Source: a virus. From it: a stretch of DNA of 25,500 nucleotides. Below the pieces are notes generated by a model that was not told the DNA's origin, did not search any database, and was given only the letters and a program-made list of their open reading frames with translations. The stretch covers positions 1 through 25,500 of IMG/VR virus record IMGVR_UViG_3300042485_003650. One strand, written 5' to 3'. This document shows positions 2,903-22,874 of the stretch, piece after piece. Each line of letters starts with the position of its first letter. Position 1 is the first letter of the stretch. A program made the translations under genes and the position numbers.

Positions 2903-3433
2903 ATGGCAAACACAATAACACAAACCTGCACACACTGCGGAGAAACAAAACCCTTAGATAGAGAACATTACCATAGAAACAAAGGTAGAACCTGCGGATA
3001 TATGTCTTTATGTAAACCTTGTCAAATGAAAAAGGTTGAGAAATACAATAGAGAAAATCCAGATTATTGGGAAGCATACCGAATTAAAAGAGGAGATTAC
3101 ATCAGAGATTATTGGGAACATTATTACGAATTAGATACCTGTAAAATCTATGGTATTGTTTGTAAAGAAACAGGTGAAACTTATGTAGGTTTCACTCAAC
3201 ACAAAGATATAAACATAAGAGTATCTCGCCACAAAATGGATTACAAAAGTAGACATGGTGCTTATGTTAAACTACACGAAAGTATAGACAAATACGGTTG
3301 GGATGGACACGATGTAATACTAATTGAAGAGTTGAAAACAAAAGATAGAGCGAGAGGAATGGCACAAGAAACGTTTTGGATACGCCATTATCACAAAATG
3401 GGAAAGACATTAAACATAGCAAAGATAAAATAA
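2903..3433 (+). CDS. Zinc-finger GIY-YIG endonuclease
   Basis: A 176-aa protein with two parts. Residues 9-40 form a Cys4 finger (C9, C12, C37, C40) in the style CTHCGETKPL...CKPC, common on phage HNH and GIY-YIG nucleases. Residues 80-172 are a GIY-YIG nuclease domain: IYGI at 82-85, YVG at 94-96, a candidate catalytic Arg at 106 (NIRVSRHK), Glu at 156 (AQETFWI) and Asn at 171. The family cuts DNA using one metal ion; free-standing members in phages are often homing endonucleases. The gene lies 6 bases upstream of a DNA methyltransferase, so a selfish mobile gene or a role with the methylase are both open. The domain call is firm; the role in homing is inference. Confidence 0.85.
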   Translation: MANTITQTCTHCGETKPLDREHYHRNKGRTCGYMSLCKPCQMKKVEKYNRENPDYWEAYRIKRGDYIRDYWEHYYELDTCKIYGIVCKETGETYVGFTQHKDINIRVSRHKMDYKSRHGAYVKLHESIDKYGWDGHDVILIEELKTKDRARGMAQETFWIRHYHKMGKTLNIAKIK

Positions 3434-3439
3434 AGTTAT

Positions 3440-4924
3440 ATGAAATTATTATTAGGAGATTGTTTAGATAAATTAAAAGAATTAGAAGACAATTCAGTAG
3501 ATAGTATAGTTACAGACCCACCATACGGATTAGCATTTATGGGTAAGAAATGGGATTACGATGTTCCATCACAGGCTATTTGGGAAGAGTGCCTTCGTGT
3601 TCTTAAACCAGGAGGTCATATCCTTTCATTTGCAGGTAGCCGAACATATCACAGAATGGCAGTAAGGATTGAAGATGCAGGGTTTGAGATTAGAGACCAG
3701 ATTATGTGGATATATGGTAGTGGGTTTCCTAAGTCTCATAACATAGGTAAAGCAATAGATAAGATTGAAGGTAATGAGAGAGAGGTAGTTGGAGAAAATC
3801 CAAATAAGAAAGGTAGAAAATCTGACGGTAAAGGTTCTTTTGTAAGTGATACTTTATTAGGCAAAGGAGAAAATGCAGGAGTTTATGTTGATAAAGGAAA
3901 CTCTCAATGGGAGGGTTGGGGAACTGCTCTTAAACCAGCACATGAACCAATCGTTATGGCTAGAAAACCATTAATTGGGACAGTTGCGGACAATGTATTA
4001 GAATATGGTGTAGGTGGATTAAACATAGATGGTTGTAGAATTGGATATACAGATGATTATGATAAGAAACATCAAGAAGATATTAGAAAAGGAACTGGCA
4101 CATTCTTTGGTGGTAATGGAACATCTAAATCGGAACAAGTTGATATGAATGGTAGATTTCCTGCAAACATTATCTTTGAATGCACTTGTGAAAAAGTAAT
4201 TGAAGGAGATAAAGGAGAAATTAAATATAGTTCAGGTAGTAGAGATAATGTAAATCTAACTCATGAATGGGGATATAATGATATACAAAGAACAAATTAT
4301 ACTGATACAGGTAATATACACACAGACCCTAACTGCCCTTGCTACATATTAGACCAACAAAGTGGTAATAAGAAATCAACTAAAAGAGGAGCACATAACA
4401 ATAAGAAAACAGAATACACTAACACTTATACTCCATCAAATGCATTATATAGTGATGATAATACCTACGGAGATGAAGGTGGAGCAAGCAGGTTCTTCTA
4501 TTGCCCGAAAGCATCAAAGAAGGATAGGAACGAAGGGTGTGATGAGTTAGAGGAAAAGCAAAGACCAGGTCAAACTGGTAAAGGTAACTACTCATCATCA
4601 GTATATTGTAAAGATTGTGGTAAAACTCATAATGGAACAAATGACCATAGTGAGTGTAATGATGATGTAGAATATAGACCATCTACTACTACAACAAAAA
4701 ACAATCACCCAACCGTTAAACCAACCGAACTAATGAAATACCTTATTCGTTTAGTGACACCAAAAGGTGGAGTAGTATTAGACCCGTTTATGGGTAGTGG
4801 TTCGACAGGTAAAGCGGCAGTATTAGAAGGTATGGAGTTTATCGGTATAGAAAGAGAGGAAGAGTATTATGAAATCGCAAAGCAAAGAATACAAAATGAA
4901 ACTAATAAAAGAAAATTCTGGTAA
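3440..4924 (+). CDS. Beta-class DNA methyltransferase (N6-A or N4-C)
   Basis: A 494-aa S-adenosylmethionine-dependent DNA methyltransferase. The catalytic DPPY motif is at residues 26-29, and the SAM-binding motif DPFMGSG is at 448-454 near the C-terminus, the order of the beta class. HPTVKP before the SAM motif is also typical. The 420-residue region between them is long and holds several Cys-rich patches, including CxxC at 390-393 with H397, H403 and C406, which look like a zinc site, and CPCYIL further upstream. DPPY implies methylation of an exocyclic amino group, adenine N6 or cytosine N4; the target sequence cannot be read from the protein. A phage methylase with no cognate restriction enzyme visible usually protects phage DNA from host restriction. 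Confidence 0.93.
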   Translation: MKLLLGDCLDKLKELEDNSVDSIVTDPPYGLAFMGKKWDYDVPSQAIWEECLRVLKPGGHILSFAGSRTYHRMAVRIEDAGFEIRDQIMWIYGSGFPKSHNIGKAIDKIEGNEREVVGENPNKKGRKSDGKGSFVSDTLLGKGENAGVYVDKGNSQWEGWGTALKPAHEPIVMARKPLIGTVADNVLEYGVGGLNIDGCRIGYTDDYDKKHQEDIRKGTGTFFGGNGTSKSEQVDMNGRFPANIIFECTCEKVIEGDKGEIKYSSGSRDNVNLTHEWGYNDIQRTNYTDTGNIHTDPNCPCYILDQQSGNKKSTKRGAHNNKKTEYTNTYTPSNALYSDDNTYGDEGGASRFFYCPKASKKDRNEGCDELEEKQRPGQTGKGNYSSSVYCKDCGKTHNGTNDHSECNDDVEYRPSTTTTKNNHPTVKPTELMKYLIRLVTPKGGVVLDPFMGSGSTGKAAVLEGMEFIGIEREEEYYEIAKQRIQNETNKRKFW

Positions 4925-5126: not shown

Positions 5127-5647
5127 TGGGCGGTACAGGCAGCGGGAGACCAGCAAATGGAATCAAAGCCCCCAAAGAAGATTTAAGCCATCTGTCTAAG
5201 GAAGAAAAGCTAGAAAGAAGCCGTAAATACGCTAGAGACCGTTTTGATAGATTAAGACAGGAGAAAGCTGAAAATAGTGAATTAAATGGTTATCAACTCT
5301 ATAAGTTAAACTATAAGATGAAATACCACGATGACGAGAAAAGAATTGGACATTTACGAGAGGAGGGTAGAGTGTTTAAGGTGCATGAAGACCCAGCAGA
5401 GTTTATGATTTATATTAGGGAAAAGAACCGAAGGATACTAGATGAGATACTCAATGATGAAGAAAAGATGAAGTATATATTTTCCGACAGAGAGGATATA
5501 CCAGAAGCACAGAAGAACTTACAAAGACAAAGGAGTCACTATACTGCTAAAGAAATCAAAGAGATGGAAAGAAAACTAAACGAAGAGTTTAACCTATTAG
5601 AAGATAGAAAAACACAATCAACATTCAAACCAATAAATGAAGAATAA
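5126..5647 (+). CDS. Hypothetical charged helical protein, GSGRP N-terminus
   Basis: A 173-aa, highly charged protein beginning MGGTGSGRPANG, an N-terminal tag also seen on small terminase-like and other phage DNA-associated proteins. The rest is almost entirely Lys, Glu and Arg-rich helix (KEEKLERSRKYARDRFDRLR; KEIKEMERKLNEEF), likely coiled coil. It is not the best terminase small-subunit candidate, because a better one lies next to the large subunit at 7229-7534. It overlaps the upstream gene by one base and ends one base before the FkbM gene, so it belongs to a tightly coupled operon. Function unknown. Confidence 0.65.
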   Translation: MGGTGSGRPANGIKAPKEDLSHLSKEEKLERSRKYARDRFDRLRQEKAENSELNGYQLYKLNYKMKYHDDEKRIGHLREEGRVFKVHEDPAEFMIYIREKNRRILDEILNDEEKMKYIFSDREDIPEAQKNLQRQRSHYTAKEIKEMERKLNEEFNLLEDRKTQSTFKPINEE

Positions 5648-5648
5648 T

Positions 5649-6377
5649 ATGAGTTATGGACAGTTTAACGAAGATAGTTTTATACTATCAGAATACACGC
5701 AATCATTTGGATATGCGATAGAAGTAGGAGGAGCAGATGGAATCAATGGCTCACCTACAAAATGTTTAGAAGATAAGGGATGGAAAACACTTTTGATTGA
5801 ACCTAACCCACAATTGTTTACAGAGGCTAAAAGAAACAGACCCCATGTATTCAATTGTGCTGCAGGTGATATATGTGAGGATAATGTAGGAATGACAATC
5901 TATACACTTAAAGGTGGGAATGAAACTGCTGTTAGTGGATTGAATCCTAATGCAAAATTGATTGAACAACACAATCACTTAATTGAAGACCAGAGATTAG
6001 AGTTAGTAAACAAAAGAACTCTTAATGTATTGATTTATGAATGGGGAAAAGTATTGGGTGAAAAGATTGAGAGCATAGATTTCATTTCAATTGATACAGA
6101 AGGAACAGAGTTAGATGTAATGAAAGGATTAGATGTAAAGAAGTATCAACCAAAGATAATAGCATTAGAGAATAACTTTGAAGACCATAACTACAGAAGA
6201 ACAATGTATAATTATGGTTATGTATTATACAACCGAATAGGTGTGAATGATTATTATATTCATAATACCTACTTACCAACTAATGCAACAGGTCAATTAG
6301 ATTTAACCGATACACCAATCGTAAAACATATTCAACAACAACAAAGAGAAAAAGCATTAAATGTATGGAACAAATAA
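5649..6377 (+). CDS. FkbM-family SAM-dependent methyltransferase
   Basis: From ATG 5649 the protein has 242 aa; an in-frame ATG at 5637 overlaps the upstream gene and is less likely. The SAM-binding motif I is AIEVGGADG (about 23-31), followed by LLIEPNP with the acidic ribose-binding residue, and SIDTEGTELDVMKG (147-160), a hallmark of the FkbM family (Methyltransf_21). Such enzymes O-methylate sugars, polysaccharides or other small acceptors. No membrane segment is seen, so it should be cytosolic. In a phage it might modify host surface glycans or nucleotides or glycoconjugates on the virion, but nothing here identifies the substrate. It overlaps the next gene by 13 bases. Confidence 0.85.
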   Translation: MSYGQFNEDSFILSEYTQSFGYAIEVGGADGINGSPTKCLEDKGWKTLLIEPNPQLFTEAKRNRPHVFNCAAGDICEDNVGMTIYTLKGGNETAVSGLNPNAKLIEQHNHLIEDQRLELVNKRTLNVLIYEWGKVLGEKIESIDFISIDTEGTELDVMKGLDVKKYQPKIIALENNFEDHNYRRTMYNYGYVLYNRIGVNDYYIHNTYLPTNATGQLDLTDTPIVKHIQQQQREKALNVWNK

Positions 6378-6622
6378 CAGCGACAACTATACCACCAACA
6401 ATGTATGGTATCCTAACAGAAAGTGAATTTACGGAGTTAAAGAACACCTTAAGTGAAATCACAACCAATCTACCAAATCACCTAACTGATTACGTTTGGA
6501 ATACATACACAAGAATTAAATCAACGAGAGAACCAAAGCCGTGTATGTGTAAGAGTAGTGGTGGATTGTGGGCAGGAGCCGTAGAACATTTACGAAACTA
6601 TGTAACGGAGAATGACAAGTAG
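6365..6622 (+). CDS. 85-aa small phage protein with CxC motif
   Basis: ATG 6365 overlaps the FkbM gene by 13 bases. The C-terminal signature PCMCKSSGGLWAGAVEHLRNYV (C60, C62) is one I recognise in slightly varied form in small Bacteroidota phage proteins near the packaging genes. The N-terminal part is a helical stretch (ESEFTELKNTLSEITTNLPN). A CxC pair followed by SSG and a Trp-containing helix could be a small zinc or nucleic-acid binding unit, but the function is unknown. It overlaps the following sigma-like gene by 11 bases. Confidence 0.7.
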   Translation: MEQITATTIPPTMYGILTESEFTELKNTLSEITTNLPNHLTDYVWNTYTRIKSTREPKPCMCKSSGGLWAGAVEHLRNYVTENDK

Positions 6623-7175
6623 TAGTTTAGAATTAAGGTCGGAAACAAATAAAAGATTAGAACATCTTTACATTTCACATAGTGGATGGTTGAAATCTGT
6701 AGCTAATAACATTACTAAAGATAAAAGAGAAGGCGAAGAGTTAGTAGCAGAACTTTATCTATATTTGGCGGAAAGACCTAATTCTAATCTATGGTATAGT
6801 ACAAGTTTCAATCTAATGTATCTCAGAGCATTTATACATAGCCGTTTTATAAATGGTAAGAAGAGAGGAAGTAAGACAACACAGATAAGAGAGAGTGATA
6901 CCTCATTAGTATATGAAGAGTATGATATAGAGAGTGATGAGAGGTTTGAAGGGTGTTGGAATGAAATGATAGGGGAATTAGAATCCCTTAAGAAAGAAAA
7001 GAATTGGCACTCAGCTCTACTCTTTGAACATTACTATTTCAATGATGATATGACGTTACAAAAGTTATCCGATGAGATTGGTATATCACTTAGTACAACC
7101 TATATGCATACTAAAAGGATAAAGGAACATCTAAAGGAAAAGCTAACCAATCCATTCAAACCAAAAAAAGATTAG
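6612..7175 (+). CDS. Sigma-factor-like regulator, late gene activator candidate
   Basis: A 187-aa protein with the layout of a small sigma-70-type factor. Residues 15-80 resemble a region-2-like helical block (SHSGWLKSVANNIT, EGEELVAELYLYLAERP), a linker of acidic residues follows (about 95-115), and residues 147-177 form a region-4-like helix-turn-helix (MTLQKLSDEIGISLSTTYMH then TKRIKEHLKEKL). Helix-turn-helix in this position recognises the -35 promoter element in known sigma factors. It sits immediately before the terminase genes and overlaps the upstream gene by 11 bases. I infer that it directs transcription of the late genes; other sigma-like DNA-binding roles are possible because region 2 is divergent. 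Confidence 0.7.
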   Translation: MTSSSLELRSETNKRLEHLYISHSGWLKSVANNITKDKREGEELVAELYLYLAERPNSNLWYSTSFNLMYLRAFIHSRFINGKKRGSKTTQIRESDTSLVYEEYDIESDERFEGCWNEMIGELESLKKEKNWHSALLFEHYYFNDDMTLQKLSDEIGISLSTTYMHTKRIKEHLKEKLTNPFKPKKD

Positions 7176-7228: not shown

Positions 7229-7534
7229 ATGGAAGAGATAGAACCAAAGAGAAAAAAGACAGGTGGTAGACAGAAAGGTGTAACCAATAAGACTACAGCC
7301 GAATTAAAAGCTATCATTACACAGATAGTAGGAAACCAATTGGAAAGATTAGAAACTGATTTGGATAAGATAAGAAAATACAATCCAGCCAAAGCAGTTG
7401 AAATAGCTAGTAAGTTAATTGATTATGTTTTACCTAAGCAGACAAAGATGGAAATAGAAGGTGAGTTAAAGCATAAGGTTGATAAGATAGTTATAGAAAT
7501 TAAGAAGAATGGAACTACAGATACAGACAAGTAA
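7229..7534 (+). CDS. terS: Terminase small subunit (likely)
   Basis: A 101-aa protein starting with a basic tail and GGRQKGVTNKTTAELKAIIT, a pattern found in small subunits and DUF5681-like proteins beside large terminase genes in Bacteroidota phages. Helices with VGNQLERLETDLDKI and AKAVEIASKLIDYVLPKQ follow. Small subunits recognise the packaging site and hand DNA to the large subunit. It overlaps the large subunit gene by 26 bases, in agreement with this role. It is shorter than many classical small subunits and has no clear helix-turn-helix, so the assignment rests on the N-terminal motif and position. Confidence 0.75.
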   Translation: MEEIEPKRKKTGGRQKGVTNKTTAELKAIITQIVGNQLERLETDLDKIRKYNPAKAVEIASKLIDYVLPKQTKMEIEGELKHKVDKIVIEIKKNGTTDTDK

Positions 7535-8690
7535 AACATTTGAGGATATAAACTCAGATAGAAAGATTGTACTACTAAGAGGCGGTTCACGTTCAGGCAA
7601 ATCTTATAGTGCAGTTCAGTATCTTATAGTAAAAGCAATAGAAGAACCAAACACTATTATATCCATCGTTCGTAAATCCTTCCCATCCCTCCGTATCTCA
7701 ACGCTAAGAGACTTTCGTAGTATAATGGAGGAATTACACCTTTGGGAGGAAGAACGTTACTTAGCCACAGAAAAAGCCTACCGTTTTAATAATGGTAGTA
7801 TGATTGAGTTCCTATCCATTGACGATGCGGAAAAGAGAAAGGGAACAAAAAGAGATTACTTATTTGTAGATGAAGCAAACGAATTGAACTATGAGGATTT
7901 CTTTCAGTTGTTTATTCGTACTACATACAAAACTATCCTAGCATACAACCCATCATTCAGTAAACAACATTGGATATATAAGCAGGTAGCAATACATCCA
8001 CAGGCAGAAGAGTATGTATCCACCTATAGAGATAACCCATTCTTAGACCAGAGGATAGCAGATGAGATTGATAGATTAAAAGATATATCACCATCGTATT
8101 ATGCAGTATATGGTAATGCTCAGTTCGGTATGGTAGAAGGAATCATATTTGATAACGTTAGTATTATAGATGAGATACCTGAAGATGCTAAGTTATTAGG
8201 ATACGGCTTTGATGCTGGATACTCTAATGACCCATCGGCTATAGTAGGTATGTATCAATATGAATCAGATATAATCTATGATGAGATAGTTTATATGAAA
8301 GGTCTGCTGACAAATCAATTAGCTAATTTTATATTAGGTGCGTATGAGAACTTTGGGAGAAACGAAGTATGGATAGATAGTAGTGAGCCACGCCTTAGAG
8401 ATGAGATATTCAGATATGGCATAAACATTAAATCAGTAGTGAAGGGTAAGGATAGTATAGTGAATGGTATAGATGTAATGAAACAGAATCGTATCTTACT
8501 GACTAAACGTTCTAGCAACCTCATCAATGAGTTCTTTTCCTATAGTTGGAAGAAAGATAAGGCAGGGAATACAACGAACGAACCAGAGGATATAAATAAT
8601 CACGGAGTAGATGCCTGTCGCTATGTAGCAATGATGAGAGCTAGTAAAGCGGGAAAGAACAGAGGAACTTATAATATATCAATACGATGA
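7509..8690 (+). CDS. terL: Terminase large subunit
   Basis: A 393-aa packaging motor protein. The ATPase domain has a Walker A motif GGSRSGKS at 25-32, Walker B LFVDE at 118-122, and a probable coupling motif AYNPS at 145-149. The C-terminal nuclease has candidate metal ligands D235 (GFDAGYSNDPSA), D290 (WIDSSEP) and D368 (HGVDACRY), matching the RNase H-like nuclease of the PBSX/Terminase_3 type. It uses ATP to pump DNA through the portal and cuts concatemers. It overlaps the small subunit gene and shares ATGA with the next small gene. All key residues are present, so it should be active. Confidence 0.96.
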   Translation: MELQIQTSKTFEDINSDRKIVLLRGGSRSGKSYSAVQYLIVKAIEEPNTIISIVRKSFPSLRISTLRDFRSIMEELHLWEEERYLATEKAYRFNNGSMIEFLSIDDAEKRKGTKRDYLFVDEANELNYEDFFQLFIRTTYKTILAYNPSFSKQHWIYKQVAIHPQAEEYVSTYRDNPFLDQRIADEIDRLKDISPSYYAVYGNAQFGMVEGIIFDNVSIIDEIPEDAKLLGYGFDAGYSNDPSAIVGMYQYESDIIYDEIVYMKGLLTNQLANFILGAYENFGRNEVWIDSSEPRLRDEIFRYGINIKSVVKGKDSIVNGIDVMKQNRILLTKRSSNLINEFFSYSWKKDKAGNTTNEPEDINNHGVDACRYVAMMRASKAGKNRGTYNISIR

Positions 8691-8881
8691 GCCGTTATAC
8701 CGAAGAAGAAGTGGAACAATTAGTAGAGTTAGTAGGTAAACTATTAGAAGCTAACGAAGAGTTAAATGCTAGAGTAATAGCAATAGATGCTTACCTTAAG
8801 AATGAGATGGCAAGAACAAAGCAATTAAAAAACATAATAAGACAATATGAAGCAAGAAATAACGATTACAGTACCAACTAA
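8687..8881 (+). CDS. 64-aa coiled-coil hypothetical protein
   Basis: ATG 8687 overlaps the terL stop (ATGA), a common sign of translational coupling. The 64 residues are almost wholly helical and acidic at the N-terminus (YTEEEVEQLVELVGKLLEAN) and basic in the C-terminal half (MARTKQLKNIIRQYEARN), with heptad spacing of Leu, Val and Ile. No known domain. A small oligomerisation or adaptor protein is likely from composition alone. It overlaps the next gene by 35 bases. Confidence 0.65.
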   Translation: MSRYTEEEVEQLVELVGKLLEANEELNARVIAIDAYLKNEMARTKQLKNIIRQYEARNNDYSTN

Positions 8882-9494
8882 ATGGAGTGCTGTATCTTTG
8901 GAGAAGTATCTAAGGATGAGAAAGGATATGGAAACCTATAAGGATAATGATGAAGCAATCTATGCCGTATTATTCTATCACTTATGTGGTGTAGATGCAC
9001 AGACAATAAACAAATTGGATATTGAAACATACACTGCAATACAAAATGATTTAGGTAGCTTTATGCAGAAGACAGAGTATCCACTACAACAATTTATCAA
9101 AGTAGATGGAAAGGAATACGGCTTTGAACCTAACCTATCACAAATGGCTTATGGAGCTTATGTGGATTTAGGAAAGTATGAGAACTTAACAATAGATGAT
9201 AAGTGGCATGAGGTAATGAGTATTCTGTATAGACCTGTTACAAAGAAGATAGGTCTTTCATATCAAATAGAACCATACAATGGAGTAATCAATCCTGATA
9301 TATTTTTAAATGTGGATATGGAGGTACACTTTGGGGCATTAGGTTTTTTTATCAATTTACTTCAGGATTGTCAGAAAGGTATCCTGAAGTATTTGACGGA
9401 GACTGGGGAGATTCCAACCAACATTCTTACAATTTTGGAAAAAAGTGGAAAGCTTACTCTTCCATTTACACCCTTTCAGGCGGAGACATACTAA
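8847..9494 (+). CDS. Virion or tail assembly chaperone-like protein, zero-frame product
   Basis: A 215-aa protein from ATG 8847. The N-terminus (ITITVPTKWSAVSLEKYLRM) and AVLFYHLCGVDAQTI recall a family that I know from Flavobacteriia phages, of unproven function. The gene carries a -1 frameshift signal after residue 168 (T7 run at 9344-9350 plus an 11-bp hairpin). Ribosomes that stay in frame make this 215-aa form; those that slip make a 255-aa form ending in the frame that stops at 9613. A short and a long product from one start is the gpG/gpGT pattern of tail assembly chaperones, but those normally precede the tape measure gene and none is seen here. Role inferred. Confidence 0.75.
   Translation: MKQEITITVPTKWSAVSLEKYLRMRKDMETYKDNDEAIYAVLFYHLCGVDAQTINKLDIETYTAIQNDLGSFMQKTEYPLQQFIKVDGKEYGFEPNLSQMAYGAYVDLGKYENLTIDDKWHEVMSILYRPVTKKIGLSYQIEPYNGVINPDIFLNVDMEVHFGALGFFINLLQDCQKGILKYLTETGEIPTNILTILEKSGKLTLPFTPFQAETY
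9344..9391 (+). promoter_or_regulatory. Programmed -1 ribosomal frameshift signal
   Basis: The zero frame reads GGT TTT TTT ATC at 9342-9353, so T-TTT-TTT (9344-9350) permits a -1 slip with identical codon pairing. After a 7-base spacer, TACTTCAGGAT (9358-9368) pairs perfectly with ATCCTGAAGTA (9381-9391) over 11 bp with a 12-base loop. Slippery heptamer, spacer of 5-9 bases and stable hairpin are the standard parts of such a signal. The -1 frame is open from the slip site to TAG at 9611-9613. Confidence 0.85.
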
Positions 9495-9613
9495 AGTTTG
9501 ATGATGTAGTAAGGCTTCCATTAGAGAAAGCTCTCCTTTATCTAGCTTATATCAACGATAAAGCACATTTAGAGCAGTTAATACATAAGGAAAGTATAGC
9601 AAAGATGAAATAG
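9350..9613 (+). CDS. C-terminal extension made by -1 frameshift
   Basis: This is the -1 frame continuation of the gene starting at 8847. After the slip the next codon is TAT at 9350, giving 87 residues that begin YQFTSGLSERYPEVF and include FGKKWKAYSSIYTLSGGDIL and VVRLPLEKALLYLAYINDKA. The fused product would have 168 + 87 = 255 residues. As a separate gene it would lack an ATG near its 5' end and overlap the zero-frame gene by over 120 bases, so translation by frameshift is much more likely than independent initiation at the TTG at 9368. The end of this frame resembles the C-terminal part of proteins in which the shift is fixed, as I recall, but I could not check. Confidence 0.75.
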   Translation, partial: YQFTSGLSERYPEVFDGDWGDSNQHSYNFGKKWKAYSSIYTLSGGDILKFDDVVRLPLEKALLYLAYINDKAHLEQLIHKESIAKMK

Positions 9614-12534: not shown

Positions 12535-13554
12535 ATGCCAGTATTCTTAGGAAATAATAGCTTATCAAATGTATTCTTAGGTAACTCCGAAGTGCAGACA
12601 GTGTACAACGGAGTTAACTTAGTTTATCAAAAAGCTACAACTACTACTACCACAACAACCACAACTACATCAACTACGACTACATTAGCACCTTTAAGTG
12701 TAATGACATTAGTTGTTGCAGGAGGAGGTAGTGGAGGATGTGGAACAGGTGGAGGCGGTGGAGCCGGTGGTGTTGTTTACTCAGGCTCATTATCTTTACC
12801 AATTGGTACTTATGCTGTAAACGTAGGTACTGGTGCGGCATCAACAGGTTCTAATAACTCAGCATCACCTGCAGGAAGTAAAGGTCAGGATTCATCATTT
12901 ATTAGTGGAAGTATTATTGTTTCTGCTAGTGGCGGAGGAGGTGGAGTAGGATACGACCAAGCATTTGCAGCATCTAGAAATAATGGTGGAAGTGGTGGAG
13001 GTCAATCCGATAACAATACTACAAATGGTTTAACTATTGATTCTACACAAGGAAACAATGGTGGTGGAGGAACTAGTGGAACTGCGTGTGGCGGAGGAGG
13101 TGGTGGTAAAGGCCAATCAGGTCGTACACCATTAGGTTCATATCCAAATGGAACAGGTGGAGCAGGTGGAAGTGGAAGTGCATTCACAATCAGAGATGGT
13201 TCATCCGTATTCTATGGCGGTGGTGGAGGAGCTGGAACATACGCTCAAGCAACTGCTGCAGGAAAAGGTGGACCTGGCGGTGGAGGTAACGGAGGTGGAC
13301 CTTCAAATAACTCCAATTGTACTGCAGGTACTGCAAACACCGGCGGAGGCGGAGGTGGTTCATTCAGAAATATAGATGGAACTAACAACGGAGCAAGTGG
13401 TGCTGGAGGTAGTGGTATCATTGTAGTTGCATACTTAACATCATCTGCAGCAGGTAAAACTGTAACAGGTGGTATTGAAGCAACATATACATCAGGCTCA
13501 TTAACTTACAAATCACACACATTCTTAAGTTCATCAAATTTAGTTATATCATAA
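12535..13554 (+). CDS. Glycine-rich phage adhesin with Thr-linker
   Basis: A 339-aa protein. Residues 1-33 (MPVFLGNNSLSNVFLGNSEV...VYNGVNLVYQ) match a short LG..V..VYNG..LVY pattern that I know as an N-terminal anchor on phage fibre proteins. A run of Thr with a few Ser (12636-12689) leads to a Gly-rich domain starting LSVMTLVVAGGGSGG, with repeated GGGG clusters of up to six Gly, and the end reads GASGAGGSGIIVVAYL. This resembles the glycine-rich adhesins of phages such as the tip protein of T-even-like phages, whose Gly-rich segments pack as polyglycine helices and loops between them touch the receptor. A short tail after it (TVTGGIEATYTSGSLTYKSH) ends the protein. Receptor binding is a solid inference from type; the receptor is unknown. 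Confidence 0.8.
   Translation: MPVFLGNNSLSNVFLGNSEVQTVYNGVNLVYQKATTTTTTTTTTTSTTTTLAPLSVMTLVVAGGGSGGCGTGGGGGAGGVVYSGSLSLPIGTYAVNVGTGAASTGSNNSASPAGSKGQDSSFISGSIIVSASGGGGGVGYDQAFAASRNNGGSGGGQSDNNTTNGLTIDSTQGNNGGGGTSGTACGGGGGGKGQSGRTPLGSYPNGTGGAGGSGSAFTIRDGSSVFYGGGGGAGTYAQATAAGKGGPGGGGNGGGPSNNSNCTAGTANTGGGGGGSFRNIDGTNNGASGAGGSGIIVVAYLTSSAAGKTVTGGIEATYTSGSLTYKSHTFLSSSNLVIS
12636..12689 (+). repeat. ACN triplet repeats encoding poly-Thr linker
   Basis: A run of ACA, ACT, ACC and ACG codons (with TCA) encodes about 16 Thr with one Ser, ending TTTLAP. It is imperfect at DNA level but of the same composition as tracts in the genes at 18180 and 19881. It separates the anchor from the adhesive domain. 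Confidence 0.85.
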
Positions 13555-18179: not shown

Positions 18180-19865
18180 ATGGCACAAATAGTAAATGAT
18201 AGCGGTACAAACTTTACTCTCTATTACAATACATTAGAGTATTTCAAAACTATTATGAGTAACCACCCTTCAATCGGGTCAGTTACACAAGGTGATATAT
18301 TTGAGATAGATAGTAGAGAGTTTCCAGCTTATCCGTTGGGAAATGTTTTAATTACTAATACTGTCTTTGGAACTAAAACTTCAAACTTTACTATTCAACT
18401 TACCGTTGCGGATAAAGTTAAGTTAAAGAATAATAATTCAGTAGGTGTAACTAACTCACAGGTAATTCCTTTTGAAGGAGTTGATGATGTGGTAGATATA
18501 CACGCTAATACCCTTGCTATCATTAACGATTTAACCTCATATACTCAAAGAAGTGTAGAGGCTATGGAAGTTGATGGTGATATTAGTTGTACTCCATTCA
18601 AAGATAATTTTGATAATGGTTTAGCAGGTTGGGTAGCATCATTTGATGTAACAGTTCATAACGATAAGAATATCTGTTTGTTTGACCTATTCCCAACTAC
18701 AACTACAACTGCAGGGCCTACAACTACAACTACGACAGGTGCTCCGACAACAACAACTACGAGTACTACAACAACGGCAGCACCAACTACTACGACTACC
18801 GCAGGACCTACTACGACTACTACGAGTACTACGACTGTTGCCCCAACCACTACAACAACATCAACCACTACTGCTGGACCTACCTGTAGAACTACAATTG
18901 TAGATTACTTAGGAGCAGCTGTAACGGTTCAATGGCAAGATTGTAATGGTAATATACAAACTGATACACAAAGTGGACCTGGTTATTCAGAAACATATTG
19001 TGTATTCCCTAATACATCACTAACGGTTATTGCTGGTGGTGAAGGTAATGTTAGTATTATACCTAATGTTGCACCGTGTACTTCTCCTCCTGGCCCTACC
19101 ACTACTACGACTACATCTACTACAACAACTACAACTGCAGCACCTCCAATATGGAGAGTAGTAAGTTGTGATAACGTTGGTTTAGTTGCTGATGTACAAT
19201 TTGTTGGTGGAACTACAGGATTGGATTTTTCTAAGATTGTAAATATCACATCTTCTTTTGTTAGTGGATGTTGGAGTTTACAACAACCTGTTCCTACTGC
19301 ACAATATAGTGGAGCGATAGCAGGTGGTATATTTGATAATTGTATAAGTTGTCAAACATTCTCTCCTACTACAACAACCACTACTACAACAGGAGCACCT
19401 ACTACTACAACTACTACTACAATTGCACCTTGCCCTACACCAACTTTGTTTAGTGCATCGTTCAATAGTACACAAGCGTTTATAAGTGCATCTTATCCAT
19501 TCGCACCTGCGTGTGATGGAGTAACTTTGGAAGCTGATACAATTATTACTTTCCCTAATCCTATTACTGGAAGTGAAGATTGTTCTGCAAATTTAGTGTT
19601 TAGTGGATTACAAAGTTCTACTATTTACTATATCAGAGCTAGACAAAATTGTGTACCTGGATATGCTAGTTTGACAAGTAGTTATTCAAATATCGTTAGT
19701 GGTAGTACATTAGTTTCTACAACTACAACTACAACGACAACGACTACTACATTAGCACCAACTACAACAACTACTACGCAAGCGAGATTTAATTATAGTG
19801 CAAGTGTGGCATTTGATGTAAGTTCATCAGTAATTGCATGTAACGATAGAGATATTTGTGGATAA
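18180..19865 (+). CDS. Neck-like protein fused to Thr-linked appendage domains
   Basis: A 561-aa protein. Residues 1-172 (MAQIVNDSGTNFTLYYNTLE; FPAYPLGNVLI; TIQLTVADKVKLKNNNS; VVDIHANTLAIINDL; FDNGLAGWVASF) match a stand-alone neck or tail completion type protein I know from Bacteroidota phages. Here it continues into Thr-rich linkers at 18695-18881, 19097-19140, 19367-19430 and 19718-19780, separating three small Cys-containing beta domains; the third resembles a fibronectin type III fold (STIYYIRARQNCVPG). This looks like a neck ring carrying extended adhesive arms. The fusion and the linkers are directly visible; attachment to host or mucus glycans is inference. Confidence 0.65.
   Translation: MAQIVNDSGTNFTLYYNTLEYFKTIMSNHPSIGSVTQGDIFEIDSREFPAYPLGNVLITNTVFGTKTSNFTIQLTVADKVKLKNNNSVGVTNSQVIPFEGVDDVVDIHANTLAIINDLTSYTQRSVEAMEVDGDISCTPFKDNFDNGLAGWVASFDVTVHNDKNICLFDLFPTTTTTAGPTTTTTTGAPTTTTTSTTTTAAPTTTTTAGPTTTTTSTTTVAPTTTTTSTTTAGPTCRTTIVDYLGAAVTVQWQDCNGNIQTDTQSGPGYSETYCVFPNTSLTVIAGGEGNVSIIPNVAPCTSPPGPTTTTTTSTTTTTTAAPPIWRVVSCDNVGLVADVQFVGGTTGLDFSKIVNITSSFVSGCWSLQQPVPTAQYSGAIAGGIFDNCISCQTFSPTTTTTTTTGAPTTTTTTTIAPCPTPTLFSASFNSTQAFISASYPFAPACDGVTLEADTIITFPNPITGSEDCSANLVFSGLQSSTIYYIRARQNCVPGYASLTSSYSNIVSGSTLVSTTTTTTTTTTTLAPTTTTTTQARFNYSASVAFDVSSSVIACNDRDICG
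18695..18881 (+). repeat. ACN triplet repeats encoding Thr/Ser/Pro linker
   Basis: About 62 codons, mostly Thr, broken by AGP, GAP, AAP and VAP units (for example TTTTTAGPTTTTT). Three shorter tracts follow in the same gene. The unit TTTTT-xxP resembles mucin-like or cellulosomal linkers. It is imperfect at DNA level, with mixed ACA, ACT, ACG and ACC. Confidence 0.85.
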
Positions 19866-19880
19866 AATAAAAAATAAATT

Positions 19881-22874
19881 ATGGCAGATTGCAAAATAGT
19901 ATATTATAACTCAACAACTTCTTCAATTGAATTAGGAGATTTCCTATATCAAAATCAGGCACAAACAATACCAGCAGGAGCTGGATTTTATGCGTGGACT
20001 GTTAATGATAAATGGTTTGAAACTAATGATGAGGGTATTGTAATCAATAGTGGAAGTTGTTCACAAATTGGACAAATTTGGACTCCAACTCTTATTGGTT
20101 CTGTATTGATGGGTTGTATTTCTTCATCTGTAACAGCAGCTCCGTTTACTAATAGAACTGAGATTACATGGAAAGATGCATATTATACAAGTTCGTTTAG
20201 CGGTTCTAATCCAGGATATTTTGTAACATACGCAGGTACAGGAAGTATTACTTCTTCGTATCCAAATACACTATTAACTACTACTGCATCTTTTCAGGCA
20301 TACGACTTTAATAGAACATATTCATACCTATTTAATGGTAATACAATAACACAATCTGCAGAAATAAGATACAATGGAGGTATTATTACATCTTCTAAAG
20401 CAGTAAATGAATTCACTTCTCAAATATGGGGAGCTATTGATTTTACAAATTCAGGTTCTGAGAACGGATTACTTAATGTAATACAAAGTGCAGGAGCAGA
20501 TGAATGGAGTATATCCACAAGATGGGATAGTGTATCTAATACTAATAAATTATATGTTACAAGTAAATTAACAGGTAGTGTTGTTACAAGAACAGGAAGT
20601 TTAGCTGGTGGTAACTATCCAATGGATAGATTATCACTTTATAGTATTAAAGCTTCTCCTAATGGAACTGGTAGTAATTTCCAATTCCTTTCTGGTTCAA
20701 CTGTAATATCAAGTATAAATCACCCTACACAATTTAATGTTCTAATACCAAATGAAGGAGAACCTGGATGGTATTTTTATGTTGGTAATTCTTACTCTAT
20801 TGGAAATCAGTATGCATTTAGAGGATATATTAACTCTGCATTTTTATACACATCTTCTCTATCATTAGATAAGATAGAACAAAATAATTATTCATTAGTT
20901 AATGGATTTACATCATCTGTTAATACTAGAGGATGTATTGAACCAGCACCTAACTTCCCATCATTAAATGGATTAGCACACTCATTCCCTTATGGTGGTA
21001 TTTCTTATTTAGGTTCATATTGTAACGAAGGTTTACCTGGTACAATTTGTAGTGGATACCCTGTACCAGAGGGAAGTAGGTTAGAATTTGAAGTAGAGAC
21101 CAATTGGTTTGATGGTTATCAAGTTTCTAAATATCCAGGAGCTCAATTTGTATCTTGTTCTGAAGAATCAATTGCAAGTGGAAGTTGTACATACCGTAGT
21201 GATTTTGTTCCATTTGGACCAGATGCTAATAATTATATTGCAAGGCCTAACCCGAGTTTGGACTCATATAGAAGTTGGTTAACATATCCTACTACTACTG
21301 CATCTTTTGAAGCATACGATTTTACTTATTATACTCAATCTCAATTTGTACCTGAGATTGGAGATTCCTATGCTTCTGGCTCTACACTATGGACTGTAAC
21401 CGATAACTTAAATGCTGGATTAGGGCCATTTACAGCTATACAAAATCCATCAAATACATCAAATGGATTTACATATCAAATTTGGGGAGCTTTAAACTTA
21501 GCAACTACATCAAATTGTGGTATTTTTACTTTACAAGACACAATTATACCAGAACTAAATGAATACAAAATTTATACTAAAACAACAGGTTCATTAGATA
21601 CTGATAAACAAGTTGTATTTAGTAAATCTGGAAGTACACTTTCTGAAAACTATGCAGTTTCAATGAGTGTTACAGGAGCTAACTGGCCTTTAGATAGATT
21701 AACTTTATTTACATTTATGGTAAGTAGTAGTACATTTAGTATGTATTCTGGTTCTACATTAGTTGGAAGTAGAACACTTCCTAAACCATTTACTACATTA
21801 ACACCTTCTGGCTCAGATTCTACTACTAGATTATTAACAGCACAATTTAGCACTCCTGTTACATCATCACTAGCTTTTAACTATGTGAATGGTTGGAGAG
21901 GATTTGTAAACCATCAATTAGTTTACAATAGAGCAATTGGTGTAAATGAAATACAACAGAACTTAAATGCTTTCTTAACAAATACTACTTCTTCTATTGA
22001 TAAAAACAATGGAGAAAAACCACCAATTACACCTGCAACTACAACTACGACTACTAGTACAACAACTACTACTACGACTAGTACAACAACTACAACATCT
22101 ACAAGTACTACAACTACTTTGGGACCAGAGATTATAACGAGAGGATTAAGTTCTTACTTAAACTTCCGTAACTTCTTCTCTGCTTCTATTGAGAATAACG
22201 ATTTATGGTATGATAGTGTACAATTAGTAAGCCAAAGTGCATGTAGTAGAGTTATCGGTATAGATTCTGCAGATGAAGGATGTGGAGAGAACAGACCAGA
22301 TTGTCCTGTTTACTTATCTACTGGCTCATTCAATGCATGGGATTGGCCGAATGTATTCAATTGTAATAAATCGGTATTTTTCCAAACTGGCGCTTTCGCA
22401 AGTTCTTCTAATCAAACTTATGTATTCTACGGAGCATGGGATAAGGATAGTAACTACGGATTTGTTAGAAACAGAAACTTCCAAACTTCATTACAAAGAG
22501 CAAATAAGATTTACTCTTCTGGCTCTAACATTGTATTGGAAACATATTGGAACAATGGTACAACTCATACATTAGATTTACCAATTACTGCATCTACATT
22601 TACATCTTCTTCATTGAGTATGTTGACTGTAAGAGTAGAGAATGGTAACACTGCATCTGTATTCCAAAATGGAAACTTAATCTTAACTAAAGAGACTAGT
22701 TCACTAAACTTCCAATCACAAAATGCAGGTTATACATATTGGTTAGATTCTGATGATGTATCTGATTACACAATGTTTGCACACTCAATGTTGATATACA
22801 CTGCATCTCTAACAGATAATGAGATTAGTAGATTATCAACTGCGATTAACAATAACATAACCGGTTCATACTAA
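19881..22874 (+). CDS. Large adhesin with three lectin-like (LamG/ConA-type) modules
   Basis: A 997-aa protein. The N-terminal part (ELGDFLYQNQAQTIPAGAGF, WFETNDEGIVINSGSC) is a short domain often found at the start of Bacteroidota phage fibre proteins. Three modules with the concanavalin-like beta-sandwich look follow: about 130-345, 465-710 and, after a Thr/Ser linker (22036-22122), 750-997. They share signposts such as TTASF(Q/E)AYDF, IWGA(I/L), W/YP(M/L)DRL, FRGYIN or WRGFVNH, and a last helix (DKIEQN, NEIQQN, NEISRLS). Such modules bind carbohydrates. It likely acts in host recognition. The module count is by eye; the third is more diverged. Confidence 0.75.
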   Translation: MADCKIVYYNSTTSSIELGDFLYQNQAQTIPAGAGFYAWTVNDKWFETNDEGIVINSGSCSQIGQIWTPTLIGSVLMGCISSSVTAAPFTNRTEITWKDAYYTSSFSGSNPGYFVTYAGTGSITSSYPNTLLTTTASFQAYDFNRTYSYLFNGNTITQSAEIRYNGGIITSSKAVNEFTSQIWGAIDFTNSGSENGLLNVIQSAGADEWSISTRWDSVSNTNKLYVTSKLTGSVVTRTGSLAGGNYPMDRLSLYSIKASPNGTGSNFQFLSGSTVISSINHPTQFNVLIPNEGEPGWYFYVGNSYSIGNQYAFRGYINSAFLYTSSLSLDKIEQNNYSLVNGFTSSVNTRGCIEPAPNFPSLNGLAHSFPYGGISYLGSYCNEGLPGTICSGYPVPEGSRLEFEVETNWFDGYQVSKYPGAQFVSCSEESIASGSCTYRSDFVPFGPDANNYIARPNPSLDSYRSWLTYPTTTASFEAYDFTYYTQSQFVPEIGDSYASGSTLWTVTDNLNAGLGPFTAIQNPSNTSNGFTYQIWGALNLATTSNCGIFTLQDTIIPELNEYKIYTKTTGSLDTDKQVVFSKSGSTLSENYAVSMSVTGANWPLDRLTLFTFMVSSSTFSMYSGSTLVGSRTLPKPFTTLTPSGSDSTTRLLTAQFSTPVTSSLAFNYVNGWRGFVNHQLVYNRAIGVNEIQQNLNAFLTNTTSSIDKNNGEKPPITPATTTTTTSTTTTTTTSTTTTTSTSTTTTLGPEIITRGLSSYLNFRNFFSASIENNDLWYDSVQLVSQSACSRVIGIDSADEGCGENRPDCPVYLSTGSFNAWDWPNVFNCNKSVFFQTGAFASSSNQTYVFYGAWDKDSNYGFVRNRNFQTSLQRANKIYSSGSNIVLETYWNNGTTHTLDLPITASTFTSSSLSMLTVRVENGNTASVFQNGNLILTKETSSLNFQSQNAGYTYWLDSDDVSDYTMFAHSMLIYTASLTDNEISRLSTAINNNITGSY
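22036..22122 (+). repeat. ACN triplet repeats encoding Thr/Ser linker
   Basis: A run of ACA, ACT and ACG codons interrupted by AGT and TCT Ser codons, ending TTTLGP, joins lectin-like modules two and three of the adhesin. It shares codon mix and the ending TTTL(A/G)P with the tract at 12636-12689. Confidence 0.85.

Follow-up and report, generated by a model that had tools for sequence, protein, structure and literature searches.

A well-supported −1 joint of two frames beside the terminase gene of a phage family: a likely tail assembly chaperone with a possible change of slippage machinery

The recoded gene lies at 8847–9613 of the window, by which we mean the whole stretch of 25,500 nucleotides that was analyzed, and its neighbor is the gene for the terminase large subunit (TerL). 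The features at the locus are the following.

7509–8690, + strand: terminase large subunit (TerL), a conserved neighbor in phage P12024S and in the relatives inspected for gene order
8687–8881, + strand: small ORF of 64 aa between TerL and the recoded gene; ORFs of 105–109 aa are at the same place in relatives L017, L023, and L027
8847–9613, + strand: whole recoded gene, with a predicted frameshift fusion of 255 aa (168+87)
8847–9494, + strand: zero-frame ORF of 215 aa, putative gpG-like product, with 530 related loci containing the T run; AlphaFold2 mean pLDDT 84.5
9344–9350, + strand: heptamer T_TTT_TTT, the slip site, matching the phase of the 8847 frame and present in every relative reaching the site
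9350–9613, + strand: extension in the −1 frame, 87 aa followed by a stop, T-domain-like and predicted to be all-helical, a conserved protein with third-position substitutions; AlphaFold2 pLDDT 84.3
9351–9357, + strand: spacer, 7 nt
9358–9368, + strand: 5′ arm of a perfect 11-bp stem, TACTTCAGGAT
9369–9380, + strand: loop, 12 nt
9381–9391, + strand: 3′ arm of the perfect 11-bp stem, ATCCTGAAGTA

A sequence-only reading of this DNA had described the heptamer in the right phase of the 8847 frame, followed by a 7-base spacer and a perfect 11-bp hairpin, and all three were found as described: the codons at 9342–9353 read GGT TTT TTT ATC, and the two arms are complementary over their full length. 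The same reading gave a correct account of the frames and their products. From the slip onward the −1 frame stays open as far as its stop at 9611–9613, its overlap with the zero frame (claimed to exceed 120 bases) is 144 nt, and no ATG lies close to its beginning, just an internal TTG (9368); the products read from the frames are those of 215 aa and 255 aa that had been predicted. AlphaFold2 was confident for both the zero frame and the −1 domain. The region from 9340 to 9420 folded with an energy of −22.7 kcal/mol (z −2.30), and 4 of 200 shuffles did equally well. The 11-bp stem is the sole perfect stem of at least 11 bp (loop 3–20) in the 25.5-kb window, and shuffled windows contained zero or one anywhere; its position 7 nt past an in-phase heptamer is therefore unlikely to be due to chance. 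When stems beginning 5–9 nt downstream of the heptamer were sought, an 11-bp stem after 7 nt was found in the window and in two IMG/VR contigs, L001 and L002, which share the run of seven T's (T7); as these contigs come from other samples, the T7 is not an assembly error. The protein of L001 is 86% identical to that of the window and the gene has diverged by about 13.5%, and the longest mismatch-free stretch in the gene is exactly 9344–9398, 55 nt; like the heptamer in every relative reaching the site, this goes beyond what chance would give.

Of the 31 IMG/VR relatives from a first search, every one reaching the site combined a −1 frame of similar length with an in-phase T_TTT_TTT close to codon 166. 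Wider alignments, with distant members used as queries, enlarged the collection; it then comprised 530 T-run loci with 345 unique sequences, and the in-phase heptamer was present in 530 of 530 related loci reaching the site, at identities down to about 21%. The two matches without a T run proved to be one contig, fetched twice, that ends before the site. The homologous −1 frame in the relatives is about 80–93 codons long. When the search was carried out from the −1 frame alone, the T run was present in 79 of 79 loci, so its conservation is not a product of searching with the zero frame. All 57 of 57 family members matched phrog_32199, the family of Inhavirus P12024S orf38 (window E 1.4e-8). 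The true homolog in cultured phage, found in Nonlabens (Persicivirga) phages P12024S/L, has the same arrangement beside TerL, including the homologous −1 frame, at about 22–26% identity in P12024S; it differs from the window in having T9 and no hairpin. In the GenBank record of P12024S (L032, 14001–14695) orf38 and orf39 are annotated as two hypothetical proteins; orf39 covers no more than the distal part of the −1 frame that belongs to orf38, and the joint at the T9 was missed. Among the 530 loci no IMG/VR member encoded the fusion in one frame. Several BFVD proteins of 226–267 aa matched both halves and may be natural in-frame fusions; single proteins of 240–267 aa that matched both the zero-frame and the −1-frame models are A0A516L611, A0A516L5A8, A0A6J5N0W0, A0A6J5SVK3, and A0A6J5N3F3. 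In the genome collection the family occurred in two GTDB MAG contigs only, labeled Pseudooceanicola (L174) and Euryarchaeota (L175); these host labels are implausible, and the contigs are probably viral ones that were binned wrongly.

Substitutions were counted in 46 non-overlapping sequence pairs. Past the zero-frame stop they fell on codon positions 1, 2, and 3 of the −1 frame in numbers of 154, 83, and 356, compared with 606, 310, and 1643 in the zero frame upstream. The −1 frame is thus under purifying selection, with a third-position bias like that of the upstream zero frame. Within the overlap substitutions favored the third positions of the −1 frame (153/70/211), which are the second positions of the zero frame. 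Together these counts indicate that the −1 frame is a translated protein and that the tail of the zero frame is the less constrained of the two. The −1 joint of the two coding frames, as proposed for this gene from the window's sequence, is therefore well supported for the family, the products sharing their N-terminus and the shift leading, close to the 3′ end, into a second frame that is conserved.

The sequence-only reading had named conservation of both heptamer and hairpin in related phages as a check on the frameshift. The heptamer was kept wherever the second frame was kept; the hairpin was missing in almost all relatives, which had T9 or T10 instead, and a heptamer with hairpin is not supported as a rule of the family. 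Among the 345 unique sequences the run was T9 in 260, T10 in 82, and T7 in 3, namely the window, L001, and L002; neither T8 nor runs longer than T10 occurred. In the same loci (659 kb) there were only five other T9 runs and no other T10. In 106 T9/T10 representatives the sequence downstream of the run folded as its shuffles did (mean z about 0.1), with a minimum free energy of about −7 kcal/mol versus −15.3 kcal/mol in the window and none at or below −15; the strong hairpin is thus confined to the window's T7 lineage. Upstream of the run the T9/T10 members had no 5′ hairpin of the kind that might promote polymerase slippage (mean z −0.19). An SD-like upstream stimulator was also considered and rejected; GGAG was commoner than in a control stretch, which is seemingly explained by the coded Gly-Ala (GGA GCN).

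The T's flanking the heptamer belong to different codons in different lineages, and yet their sum is kept. Two T's on the left were paired with none on the right, one on the left with one or two on the right, and none on the left with two or three on the right. The total run was 9–10 in 85 of 87 representatives versus a permuted mean of 48, and in a larger set in 144 of 145 versus 107.7, in a permutation that treats the representatives as independent though they are related, the effective number being nearer a dozen. On a tree the left and right run states changed about 12 times each. The window and L001 adjoined L036 and L038, which have T10, and lay near L037, which has T9; the T7 therefore looks derived. 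The T7 with the hairpin arose in just a single lineage, as one event (n = 1), and because the window and L001 have identical hairpins, there is no covariation support.

For a constraint on total length that holds regardless of codon phase, in members that lack RNA structure, polymerase slippage is a better explanation than tandem tRNA slippage, for which the heptamer alone suffices. The window's T7 is shorter than the run of at least nine A or T that we used to recognize transcriptional slippage, a length that the T9 and T10 of the relatives reach. Nine A or T is the length of efficient slippage by bacterial RNA polymerase, and the RNA:DNA hybrid of the polymerase is 9–10 bp (PMC5009743; PMC1088944). 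It is plausible that the T9/T10 relatives join their frames largely by transcriptional slippage; RNA polymerase would insert an extra U and the fusion would be made from slipped transcripts, alone or with ribosomal slippage, for which the T9–T10 runs could be used too. A 3′ hairpin is untranscribed while the polymerase is on the run, and the hairpin of the window therefore points to the ribosome. Hairpin-stimulated ribosomal −1 frameshifting is the likely mechanism in the window's lineage, to judge from its sequence: two tRNA-Phe would re-pair on U_UUU_UUU while the ribosome was impeded by the 11-bp hairpin 7 nt downstream. Most translation would end at 9494 and give the gpG-like protein of 215 aa; a minority would slip into the −1 frame and give the gpGT-like protein of 255 aa with its helical C-terminal domain.

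These patterns suggest that the window's lineage changed how the slip is made. We propose, tentatively and short of calling it probable, that the recoding machinery switched within one family, with polymerase slippage mostly on T9/T10, the ribosome acting, in the window's lineage, on T7 with a newly acquired hairpin, and the run held at 9–10 by compensating codon changes. The main rival is ribosomal −1 frameshifting throughout, from T7 to T10, in which the extra T's would provide further slip registers or loosen the flanking pairing, with the hairpin making up for a short run in the window's lineage. An in-phase T_TTT_TTT does lie within every run, and gene E of phage P2, an annotated −1 frameshift, has the T-rich T_TTT_TTG after the same GGT codon. 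However, the T's outside the heptamer would then be unneeded, and nevertheless additions on the left and right compensate to 9–10 irrespective of codon phase in the permutations above, in T9/T10 members that lack structure both downstream and upstream; we therefore regard ribosomal slippage throughout as rather doubtful. For a switch of machinery dnaX provides a precedent within one gene family, in which Thermus uses transcriptional slippage on a run of nine and E. coli a ribosomal frameshift on A_AAA_AAG with a stem-loop (PMC1088944; PMC5009743). As in dnaX, members of one gene family would obtain their two products in different ways, some from polymerase slippage and others from ribosome slippage with a hairpin; dnaX is an unrelated gene, and here the proposed contrast lies within one phage family and is drawn from sequence. 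The T7 with hairpin versus T9/T10 without it offers a natural comparison of a putative chaperone ratio set by ribosome or polymerase.

Two products from one −1 architecture are a hallmark of tail assembly chaperone (TAC) genes, and the earlier analogy to the paired products gpG/gpGT gains support from the shared N-terminus and the −1 shift near the 3′ end. As in phage lambda, the longer, minor product here would have an extra C-terminal domain, and the phage is a tailed one with a tape measure gene. Lambda slips on G_GGA_AAG, whereas the window has a poly-T slip with a downstream hairpin; there is no detectable homology, and profile comparison with lambda gpG was not significant (hhalign E 0.55). 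The window's gene also lies beside the terminase, in contrast to the usual TAC position between the tail tube and tape measure genes. P2 gpE/gpE+E′ (Pfam Phage_TAC_7) resembles the window in its slip (GGT TTT TTG), and Phage_TAC_7 was matched weakly by members of the window's family; P2 E is unlike it in being 91 aa long and directly preceding the P2 tape measure gene T, and hhalign gave no significant match to gpE (E 0.1). Phage_TAC_7 was matched by 20 of 57 members (best 8.4e-5), with a score for the window of 14.5 bits versus a curated cut-off of 25, and phrog_166, a 'tail protein', by the zero frame of 21 of 57 (best 4.7e-8). A PDB fold search, including a second look, gave no usable match, and a PDB sequence search gave chance matches only. 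Pfam and NCBIfam matches such as TrmA were below cut-off and were taken as chance.

The role of the gene, which the sequence-only reading had called unclear, is less so than first thought in view of the weak tail and Phage_TAC_7 zero-frame matches across the family. The pair encoded at 8847–9613 is likely a gpG/gpGT-like tail assembly chaperone, on the basis of these weak profiles, the siphovirus context, and the downstream tape measure in relatives. Like lambda gpG/gpGT, the two proteins would serve to coat the tape measure protein and to bring in tail-tube subunits. On present evidence the gene would work like a gpG/gpGT pair and is a candidate for, rather than assigned to, a named TAC family. 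As a whole we consider probable a model of a recoded TAC gene in a Bacteroidota-type siphophage, with a ribosomal shift here and probable polymerase slippage in the T9/T10 relatives; the slip site, the frames, their conservation, the selection on the −1 frame, the hairpin, and the limits on run length are demonstrated, and its chaperone function, slippage mechanism, and product ratio are what we infer.

A second explanation accepts the recoding as real and gives the protein a role in packaging or in head-tail joining. The gene adjoins TerL in P12024S and the inspected relatives and, as had been noted from the window, is far from any visible tape measure gene. Tape-measure-like proteins are encoded by relatives G002 and G004 and by P12024S; that of G004 (profile match 8.8e-17) is about 19 kb downstream of the recoded gene and that of P12024S about 6.6 kb. 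Against such a role stand the tail and TAC profile matches across the family, the two-product −1 architecture typical of TAC genes, and gp10 of Flavobacterium phage 6H (L262, 10352–10927), which seems distantly related to the zero frame (E 1e-4 and probability 56% in hhalign) and lies in a module ending with the tape measure gene; we think a packaging or head-tail role unlikely. We did not count 6H gp10 as a family member, as its 3′ end is without a clean −1 joint; this end seems to be broken in frame, either naturally or by sequencing error.

The putative chaperone genes of this kind would form a large, so far unrecognized family of recoded tail genes, present in hundreds of environmental phage contigs and in cultured P12024S/L; annotation splits the second half of these genes or overlooks it. 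Among the open-licence papers searched we found none that reports recoding in the P12024S orf38-type family, or a phage tail chaperone made by polymerase slippage.

The run of 9–10 might instead be a mere byproduct of a conserved Phe and hydrophobic flanking codons (L/V/I/F before, F/L/Y after), its length being unselected; the extra T's do lie at codon positions fixed by such residues. Codon usage at the site argues otherwise. The slip Phe codons are almost never TTC, being TTT in 149 of 150 cases, compared with 131 of 201 in the other Phe columns that are conserved in the zero frame, and Phe codons directly after xTT TTT TTT are TTC in 18 of 18 and TTT in none, despite the predominance of TTT at other Phe columns. 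Together with the absence of T8 and of T11 or longer from the 345 unique sequences, this makes an unselected run length quite improbable. The idea that two ORFs overlap by chance and no recoding occurs, for which one could cite the AT-rich genome and its 88 XXXYYYN heptamers on the + strand, is contradicted by the universal conservation and the selection on the −1 frame, and we dismiss it.

Several other ORFs of the window were recorded. Just ahead of the terminase genes, at 6612–7175, lies a small helix-turn-helix, sigma-factor-like ORF, with counterparts at the same place in relatives including L001 and L017. Upstream of the terminase genes there are also a GIY-YIG endonuclease-like ORF (2903–3433) and an FkbM-type methyltransferase (5637–6377). 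The ORF at 3440–4924 encodes a DNA N6/N4 methylase, whose Pfam match to a model of 221 positions is spread over residues 20–482 and thus implies a large internal insert. ORF 15355 is a tail-tube candidate. Long poly-Thr linkers, some of them repeated several times per protein, mark the virion or adhesin-like proteins encoded at 12535–13554, 18180–19865, and 19881–22874.
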